Assembly (NCBI RefSeq): GCF_001418225.1 | Contig: NZ_LIPT01000001.1 | Location: forward strand, 248,001-312,000 | From: Pannonibacter indicus | Lineage (GTDB): Bacteria > Pseudomonadota > Alphaproteobacteria > Rhizobiales > Stappiaceae | Direction: 5' to 3' | DNA length: 64,000 bases | Position numbers and translations under genes: made by a program | The notes under the pieces: generated by a model | What the model was told of the DNA's origin: nothing | Databases searched by the model: none | Seen by the model: the letters and a program-made list of their open reading frames with translations, nothing else | In this document: positions 59,726 through 64,000 of the stretch, one piece after another | Layout: each line of letters begins with the position of its first letter | Position numbering within the stretch: the stretch's first letter is position 1

Positions 59726-61735
<2,010 letters not shown>

Positions 61736-61878
61736 ATTCTGCTCCAGAACCGCCGCATGTCTGCGGCGCCGTGCCCGGCTGTTCGCCCACATCCGAACCA
61801 TCAGACTGCCTTCCGGCGCGCGGGGAACGCGCAGCTCTCGAAGACCTTGCGATGATTCGGCTTTTAAATCGGTGTCCC

Positions 61879-61894
61879 TTAAGTCCTACTTAAC
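61879..61894. promoter_or_regulatory. CtrA-type box upstream of rpoD
   Basis: TTAA-GTCCTAC-TTAAC matches the full CtrA consensus TTAA-N7-TTAAC exactly, 144 bp upstream of the rpoD start codon. Confidence 0.65.
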
Positions 61895-62077
61895 CGTACC
61901 GGAAAGCCCTGCAGCCGCAGGGTGGAAACCGGACAAGTTACGCCACACCGCTCCGGCAAAGCCAGACCGGCAGACAATTCCTCAGGATATGCAGCGCGAC
62001 TGAATGTTCCGCTCGTGGCTCTTGCCATCATGAACGCTGTGGGCTGCCTGAATTCCCCTATTTAGCTCGACGCCACC

Positions 62078-62115
62078 GATTCGCAAGTGTGATTCGCGAA
62101 TCGTCAATGTGATTC
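62078..62115. promoter_or_regulatory. Cluster of four GANTC (CcrM) sites
   Basis: GATTC at 62078 and 62091, GAATC at 62098 and GATTC at 62111 fall within 38 bp. TGTGATTCGCG is repeated at 62088 and 62108, exactly 20 bp apart. GANTC is the methylation target of CcrM in Alphaproteobacteria. Confidence 0.7.
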
Positions 62116-62203
62116 GCGCAATAGCCACAGTCAGAACGCAGTCTGGGGCATGAATGCGGTCCTTTGCCGGGTTAACAGCCCATCCCGAGGACTTGCCTCA
62201 GGG

Positions 62204-64000
62204 CTAATGTGGGGACGAGGCCGCCTGATTGCCATGGCCGGGCACCATGGCCGGGCCTGCATGGCGCAGTTTTTTCGCCCGTTCAGCCAGTTCCCCCTCC
62301 TCACGGGCGCATTCCTCGCGCCGGCGCGAAAGATCCTGCGTCAGGCCGCGGATGCGGTTCCAGGCCAGTTCATCAAAGGCGTGTTCGGCAGCCGCCAGTT
62401 CCTGCTTCAGCTCCTGCTCCAGCGCCATCAGCTCGATCTGATCGAGGAAATGCAGGAAAGCCGCCTCGATGAAATCTTCCGGCGGCGTCGCCTTCAGCAA
62501 GGGGAAGCGCTGGTAAAGGCCGGAGAAGTCACCGTGCTTCTGCGCGCCCGCTTCGTCCGCCGTCATCACCTCATGCAGGATCTTGTAAAAGCTGTCATCG
62601 ACGCCTTCGGCCAGTTGCGCCGCCGTCAGGCTGTTGAAGTCCCGCGCCACGCGGCAGAGCGCATTGCGAAAGCGCGCATGCAGCGGATCGGCAAAGGGAA
62701 GGCTGGCGACACGCTCAATGTGTTTGTCCAGCAGATCGGGGAATTTCACGCACATGCCGCAGACCAGCCGTTCGGTGCCGAACAGCGGCCCCTGCGGCGC
62801 GGTGATGGCCTCACCGCCCGGCCCGCGCGTCAGAAGCTGCAAGGCAACAGCCGCATCACCCGGCCGCCCGCGCCCGCGTTCTCCACCCTGCCCCCAGCCC
62901 TGTCTCTGGCCTTGTCTCTGGCCCTGCCCCAGCGCAGCGCTGCGCTGCCGGCGCGAATGCTCGTAGAAAAGGTTGGACAGGCGCAGGCGGAAATCCAGCT
63001 GATAGCGCTTGCGCACCCGCTCGTCGGCGATGGTGCCGGTCAGATCCTCAAAGCGCTTTTCCAGCGCGGCCTTGCGTTCGGGCGTGTCCAGATTGGCGGC
63101 GCTGATCTCCCGGTCCCATACGGCCTCGAACAAGGGCTGCGCCTTGGCGGCCTCCTCATGGAACCCGGCGATCCCGCGCGCCTTGATCAGGTCGTCCGGG
63201 TCCTGCCCGTCCGGCAGGAAGCAGAACTGGAAGGAATGGCCGCTGCGCAGCACCGGCAGGATGCGGTCAATCGCCCGGTGCGCCGCAGAAATGCCCGCAG
63301 CATCGCCGTCGAAACACACGACAGGCTCCGCCGCCAGCTTCCACAACCGCAGCACCTGATCTTCGGTGAAAGCCGTGCCAAGCGTCGCCACCACTTGACG
63401 CAGGCCCGCCTGCCACAGGGCGATGGCATCAAGATAGCCTTCCACGACAAAGGCCTGCCCGCTCTTGAACGCAGGCTCGCGTGCCCGGTGGGCGTTGAAC
63501 AGCATGACGCCCTTGTGGAAGAGCGGCGTTTCCGGCGAGTTGAGGTATTTCGGCTGGCCTTCGGGATCGAGCGTGCGCCCGCCGAAGGCGACGACCCGGC
63601 CGCGCTCGTCGTGAATGGGGATCATCAGCCGCCCGCGGAACCGGTCATAAGAGGGGCGGCCATCGTCCGGCTTGATCACCAGACCGGCCTCCACCATCAC
63701 CGGCTCCTCGACGCCCTTCTCCGCCAGGAAGCGTTTCAGGCTGTCGCGTGTGTCGGGCGCAAAGCCGAAGCGGAACTCGTTCAGCGTCTCAGCACTCAGT
63801 TGGCGGCGCTGCACATAGGCGCGGGCCGTCTGGCCGCGCGGGCCGCTGAACTCCATCTGGAAGAATTGCGCCGCCATCTCGCAGACCTCGGCAAGGCCGG
63901 CCTTCTTGCGCTCCTGCCGGGCAATCTTCGGGTCCGCCACGGGAAGGGCAACGCCGGCCTGCTCCGCCAGCCGCTCCACCGCTTCGGGAAAGCTCAGCCC
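62204..64000 (-). CDS. dnaG: DNA primase DnaG, 5' part outside the window
   Basis: At least 598 residues of the C-terminal part are present; the N-terminal zinc-finger and start lie beyond 64000. The frame is open to the edge (LSFPEAVERLAEQAGVALPV). The catalytic core reads FGFAPDTRDSLKRFL, GRLMIPIHDERGRVVAFGGR and YLNSPETPLFHKG. The TOPRIM domain contains FVVEGYLDAIALWQAG and VVCFDGDAAGISAAHRAIDR. The C-terminal helicase-binding region follows a Gln/Gly-rich linker. It synthesises primers at the replication fork. Confidence 0.95.
   Translation of the reverse strand, partial: GLSFPEAVERLAEQAGVALPVADPKIARQERKKAGLAEVCEMAAQFFQMEFSGPRGQTARAYVQRRQLSAETLNEFRFGFAPDTRDSLKRFLAEKGVEEPVMVEAGLVIKPDDGRPSYDRFRGRLMIPIHDERGRVVAFGGRTLDPEGQPKYLNSPETPLFHKGVMLFNAHRAREPAFKSGQAFVVEGYLDAIALWQAGLRQVVATLGTAFTEDQVLRLWKLAAEPVVCFDGDAAGISAAHRAIDRILPVLRSGHSFQFCFLPDGQDPDDLIKARGIAGFHEEAAKAQPLFEAVWDREISAANLDTPERKAALEKRFEDLTGTIADERVRKRYQLDFRLRLSNLFYEHSRRQRSAALGQGQRQGQRQGWGQGGERGRGRPGDAAVALQLLTRGPGGEAITAPQGPLFGTERLVCGMCVKFPDLLDKHIERVASLPFADPLHARFRNALCRVARDFNSLTAAQLAEGVDDSFYKILHEVMTADEAGAQKHGDFSGLYQRFPLLKATPPEDFIEAAFLHFLDQIELMALEQELKQELAAAEHAFDELAWNRIRGLTQDLSRRREECAREEGELAERAKKLRHAGPAMVPGHGNQAASSPH

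Follow-up and report, generated by a model that had tools for sequence, protein, structure and literature searches.

Two candidate promoters, one with paired GANTC sites and one with a CtrA box, in the dnaG-rpoD gap of Pannonibacter indicus and its relatives

The Caulobacter ctrA gene is described as having two promoters, a P1 with a GANTC site at −29 and a P2 with a TTAA-N7-TTAA box at −39, and full CtrA boxes near −35 are associated with activation in that organism (passages on Caulobacter in PMC4287350). Activation by GcrA has been linked to an extended motif, YGAKTCG, with the GANTC placed between −40 and +40 of the start (Haakonsen 2015, as cited in a passage of PMC7987155). At rpoD itself, CtrA has been reported to bind the Brucella abortus promoter (passage in PMC2877005), and in Sinorhizobium meliloti a CtrA motif lies upstream of the mapped rpoD start, a predicted target (passage in PMC3616915). 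A GcrA ChIP study in Brucella gave 342 hits, with rpoD unnamed in its main text (PMC6813329). Thus, CtrA at rpoD is already known; the GANTC/GcrA half of the arrangement presented here is apparently undescribed, as our literature search found nowhere, in the portions of the sources that it covered, a description of GANTC or GcrA control at rpoD. Sigma-70 is usually regarded as an unvarying backdrop to cell-cycle circuits.

We analyzed a stretch of 64,000 nucleotides from Pannonibacter indicus (hereinafter the window, whose coordinates are used throughout) that includes the gene for the housekeeping sigma-70, rpoD (59726–61735, minus strand; 669 aa; ATG at 61735), in whose product a domain search recovered Sigma70 regions 1.1, 1.2, ner, 2, 3, and 4. 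The GGAG preceding it (61742–61745) is kept in the alignment of family gaps. On its upstream side lies the 3′ part of the primase gene dnaG (62204–64000, minus strand; DNAG_N and Toprim domains), which continues beyond the window; with both genes on the minus strand, the site between them is to be read leftward. The intervening gap of 468 bp contains a CtrA box and five GANTC sites. Searches of 61300–62700 against Rfam recovered no structured RNA in the leader at E-values up to 1, and a consensus promoter scan of the region found neither a terminator nor a consensus sigma-70 site.

A DNA search with the region in 61 genomes (our own and 60 relatives) matched 57 of them and revealed short conserved islands in the gap; by RpoD, the nearest named relatives belong to Rhizobiales (Hyphomicrobiales), with Chthonobacter albigriseus first. 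When the gaps of 26 loci from the family to which the window belongs were aligned together with that of one further locus (L039), they proved almost wholly unalignable save for three elements, namely a distal block (P1), a proximal block (P2), and the ribosome-binding end. About 185 bp separate the GANTC cluster, in the first of these, from the CtrA box, in the second. A preliminary description of this DNA had taken box and cluster as a single arrangement suggestive of cell-cycle or methylation control of rpoD. The proposed control gains support from the presence of both blocks in 26/26 loci, and both motif types are indeed conserved; the single arrangement gives way to two promoters, one of the GANTC/GcrA type and the other of the CtrA type, in place of one composite site. 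Guided by this conservation pattern, we think it rather probable that the gap houses two rpoD promoters, the distal P1 and the proximal P2.

GANTC sites start at positions 61854, 62078, 62091, 62098, and 62111 of the window, the last four spanning 38 bp, in agreement with the preliminary description; the one at 61854 lies slightly beyond the range given there. The pentamer is strongly avoided in this DNA: the window has 51 instances versus 255.7 (sd 15.6) in shuffles, and a 464-kb sample of the genome (the window plus 20 stretches of 20 kb) has 411, or one per ~1,130 bp, such that the chance frequency of one per 256 bp adopted earlier was too lenient to chance. Within that sample, the rpoD cluster is the only instance of four GANTC in 43 bp, for which the Poisson expectation is 0.015 per genome. 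In 4.17 Mb, TGATTCG with another GANTC no more than 30 bp after it was found 5 times, compared with 2 for the reversed control. The possibility that this genome generally places GANTC in pairs at a 13-bp distance was rejected (8 places vs 14 in the reversed control). Reading by eye, we located an exact 11-bp repeat, TGTGATTCGCG, at 62088–62098 and 62108–62118 (plus strand); the 20 bp previously given as the length of an exact direct repeat is the spacing between these copies. Elsewhere in the genome, a second locus has five GANTC in 265 bp; there, at least five GTTTCACGTGAATC repeats (L160:7290–7460, i.e., G000:C2, ~487290–487460) lie between two genes that are presumably mnmE-like and mnmG-like. 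The repeats are presumably parS-like boxes, and since the right arm of each is GAATC, each box contains a CcrM site.

The P1 block reads, on the minus strand, CGAATCaCnCTTGCGAaTC-N11-G(C/T)TA(A/C)ATA, with 16 bp separating TTGCGA from TA(A/C)ATA. It was recognized through conservation; the consensus scan found no promoter-like site in the region, which counts against the promoter reading. Its layout, GAATC-N4-TTGCGAATC-N11-GCTAAATA (~62052–62115), can plausibly be interpreted as an alphaproteobacterial sigma-70 promoter bearing two GANTC sites, near −30 and −43. Its predicted −35 hexamer TTGCGA (62081–62086, minus strand) overlaps the first GANTC, with the corresponding TTGCGANTC found in 26/26 family loci, and its predicted −10 hexamer TAAATA (62059–62064, minus strand, within GCTAAATA), separated from it by a 16-bp spacer, corresponds to a G(C/T)TA(A/C)ATA also present in 26/26. 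Setting the first base of TAAATA to −12 puts the predicted start at ~62052, and the minus-strand 5′ ends of the four GANTC sites at about −30 (site A, 62078–62082), −43 (site B, 62091–62095), −50 (site C, 62098–62102), and −63 (site D, 62111–62115). A TTGAC at 62103–62107 (minus strand), about 20 bp upstream of TTGCGA, is mostly conserved in the family alignment, and inspection by eye 16–18 bp downstream of it found no acceptable −10. Separately, the family alignment shows a conserved GCAGC...GcGCCG stretch (~62030–62048) immediately past the point where P1 is predicted to start.

The preliminary description had proposed that conservation of the cluster in related genomes would support function. 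On this point, the inner pair, A and B, together with the hexamers and the CtrA box, recurs in 26/26 family loci, whereas the outer two sites vary, C being unconserved (same place in 3/26 loci by eye) and D poorly conserved (5/26 by eye). The P1 search expression matched every family locus (26/26), at distances of 356 to 544 bp ahead of rpoD. When 397 genomes from the order were searched in full, this exact pattern was recovered once in each of the family genomes drawn (20/20) and in 0/377 others (reversed control: 0), and by eye the matches coincide with the rpoD 5′ ends mapped by the DNA search; the exact layout is restricted to one family within the order. That the motifs merely reflect chance or shared ancestry and have no function is a reading to which we assign very little probability: two of the four cluster sites do vary among relatives, and one of the loci compared (L010), from the same genus, is 96% identical; yet P1 and P2 are conserved blocks amid otherwise unalignable intergenic DNA across 26 loci of several genera, and the P1 pattern, the TGATTCG-GANTC pairs, and the four-site cluster are all rare elsewhere.

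All five GANTC sites at rpoD fit the extended motif YGAKTCG, as against 3/46 elsewhere in the window and 46/406 in the rest of the 464-kb sample (Fisher p=2.5e-5). The same excess in the gap over DNA outside it was seen in the family (61/93 vs 12/88) and in Rhodobacterales (71/85 vs 51/280); the corresponding counts are 48/89 vs 118/571 in other Rhizobiales, 2/5 vs 15/98 in Caulobacterales, and 2/3 vs 40/161 in the remaining loci. All these counts come from related and hence non-independent loci, with a control of mostly coding DNA. The K position in these gap sites is T in 60 and G in 1 for the family, 45 and 3 for other Rhizobiales, and 71 and 0 for Rhodobacterales, as opposed to roughly 2–3 T to 1 G outside rpoD; the rpoD sites are accordingly tighter than the published motif. 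The YGAKTCG match, along with the predicted −30 position of site A, favors GcrA over the scenario of a hypomethylated, MucR-type shielded site, at which a repressor would keep P1 silent until dislodged by CcrM or some other factor. The latter has a precedent in the Caulobacter CCNA_00169 promoter, where MucR shields four GANTCs from CcrM, and in S. meliloti sites that MucR likewise shields (PMC5172544, in the passages on shielding); these same passages make no mention of rpoD, and we deem such shielding here improbable. Returning to GcrA, the methylation-sensing protein postulated in the preliminary description would most simply be this factor.

The P2 block has the consensus GGTTAA-N7-CTTAA(g/c)GGACa, with a TA a few bases later. 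Its CtrA box, TTAAGTCCTACTTAAC at 61879–61894 (plus strand), upholds the earlier report of an exact TTAA-N7-TTAAC upstream of rpoD: it is the single exact match in the window, with 0.02 expected from shuffles, and the exact pattern has 20 matches genome-wide versus 7 for its reversal. Read on the minus strand, the box is TTAAGTAGGACTTAA (61879–61893). A putative −10 hexamer, TAAAAG (61861–61866, minus strand; a TA occurs near the same spacing in most of the alignment), gives a predicted start at ~61854 and thereby sets the 5′ T of the box at about −39. Taken jointly with the reading of P1, the stretch ~61854–61893 is in our judgment a likely promoter with the CtrA box in an activator position. 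The fifth GANTC (61854–61858), likewise a YGAKTCG fit, overlies this predicted start and is also found in L010–L014, at −115 to −130 of rpoD. Across the loci, TTAA-N7-TTAA is present in the dnaG-rpoD gap in 26/26 of the family and 23/38 other Rhizobiales; none was found in the gaps of Rhodobacterales (0/22), Caulobacterales/Hyphomonadaceae (0/7), or others (0/11), and there are 5 matches beyond the gap in ~0.9 Mb. Rhizobium-type loci (L040–L044, L052) have a TGATTCG close to where P2 is predicted to start, 42 bp past the beginning of the CtrA box (58 bp in L041).

GANTC density was compared between the gap and the rest of the locus, a control consisting mostly of coding DNA: per kb, the values are 6.92 vs 1.11 in the family (26 loci), 6.82 vs 1.48 in other Rhizobiales (38), 29.1 vs 1.12 in Rhodobacterales (22), 3.84 vs 1.29 in Caulobacterales (7), and 1.85 vs 1.61 in others (10). 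These groups were assigned from record titles (those of L070 and L071 say Alphaproteobacteria only), and 7/110 loci were omitted, six with no dnaG end in the stretch taken (L042, L043, L044, L061, L095, L113) and one with an 8-bp gap (L111). The P1 sites of L012 were scored as outside the gap in both the density and YGAKTCG counts, a bias against the claim; P1 was found in this locus when the family loci were checked for the P1 pattern. In 21/22 Rhodobacterales, the 60-bp stretch with the highest GANTC density falls in the gap, as against only 10/38 other Rhizobiales, with 10 ties. Whole-genome searches of 18 Rhodobacterales genomes with TGATTCGN{0,20}CGAATC found it in 16, in 15 of them in the rpoD upstream region, with 9 other places, one of them (in G429) at a distance of 86 bp from the rpoD place in the same genome; because this pattern was chosen after viewing the regions, the informative figure is its rarity elsewhere. 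A further rpoD-upstream form, tGATTCGCTTTTT-N-GAATC, in which two GANTC 18 bp apart flank a T tract, is common to Mesorhizobium, Bartonella, and relatives (L049, L051, L055, L056, L062, L072, L073, L076, L083).

These comparisons bear on the idea that P1 is a sigma-70 promoter whose GAATC direct repeat, at 13-bp spacing, is a tandem operator for an unknown transcription factor, with methylation being irrelevant. Several features speak for it: the sites are nearly always W-centered with fixed flanks, which is tighter than CcrM requires, and both the 13-bp spacing and the inter-site CAC/CTTGC are likewise conserved. Against this, site A has T in place of A at its center in L022, L024, and L026 while its G, A, T, and C are kept; GANTC is avoided elsewhere in the window; and the same YGATTCG words, differently oriented and spaced, occur in Mesorhizobium, Bartonella, and Rhodobacterales, which fits a methylation-type site and not one rigid operator. 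We hence regard the operator as unlikely, although less so than shielding.

The genome encodes the three regulators that the preferred reading would call for: GcrA (PF07750 at 191 bits), a CcrM-like methylase (a 451-aa ORF with N6_N4_Mtase and RAMA domains), and CtrA (84% identity to Caulobacter CtrA over residues 1–203 of 204). GcrA is also present in 18/19 of the Rhodobacterales genomes examined and in 25/27 genomes overall. Judging from motifs and geometry, P1 is more probably than otherwise a GcrA/CcrM-dependent promoter of rpoD and P2 a CtrA-activated one. P1 would then depend on sigma-70 and have sites for CcrM methylation near −30 and −43, and GcrA, a sigma-70 cofactor at methylated GANTC promoters, would be its most likely activator. 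If so activated, its firing should track methylation state and, hence, the passage of the replication fork, while P2, with its CtrA box in an activator position, would fire in predivisional cells. In this light, synthesis of sigma-70 is probably coupled to the cell cycle of the bacterium. As sigma-70 is described as the factor through which GcrA acts, a positive loop would be closed at rpoD, in which GcrA working with sigma-70 helps produce sigma-70. Counting against a simple GcrA reading are the report that Brevundimonas GcrA showed no extended YGAKTCG motif (passage in PMC7987155) and the near-constant T at the K position of the rpoD sites. The confinement of the exact P1 layout to one family and the variability of sites C and D also weigh against the preferred reading.

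Whether methylation-dependent control by GcrA has settled repeatedly on rpoD, in at least two orders (Rhizobiales and Rhodobacterales) and by means of different but dense YGATTCG arrays, is in our estimation an even call; were it true, the supply of the housekeeping sigma would depend on replication-fork passage. The Rhodobacterales arrays bear directly on a published survey's argument that, with few GANTC at ctrA, methylation may lack a major regulatory part in that order (PMC8116508, in the passage concerned). More generally, if the proposed control is real, general transcription capacity would be an output of the cell-cycle circuit, with GcrA contributing to the production of the very factor that it needs.

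Among the described systems, the predicted rpoD pair most resembles P1/P2 of Caulobacter crescentus ctrA, in having one promoter with GANTC at about −29/−30 and another with TTAA-N7-TTAA at about −39, the starts at rpoD being predicted ones. It differs in that the gene is rpoD, that P1 has two GANTC and not one, and that no CtrA half-site was noted over the rpoD P1 −10. The organism's own ctrA has upstream GANTC at −401, −252, −241, −121, and −88 but was rejected as a direct model because no exact full CtrA box lies in front of it; the ctrA parallel therefore rests on Caulobacter. With rpoD of Brucella and Sinorhizobium meliloti, it shares the upstream CtrA box in Rhizobiales; unlike here, the passages describing those promoters (PMC2877005, PMC3616915) are without GANTC or GcrA at rpoD. 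Finally, like the methylated sigma-70 promoters activated by GcrA (Haakonsen 2015, in the passage of PMC7987155), it has site A at about −30 of the predicted start within a YGAKTCG, and unlike them, the K of that motif is almost always T at rpoD.
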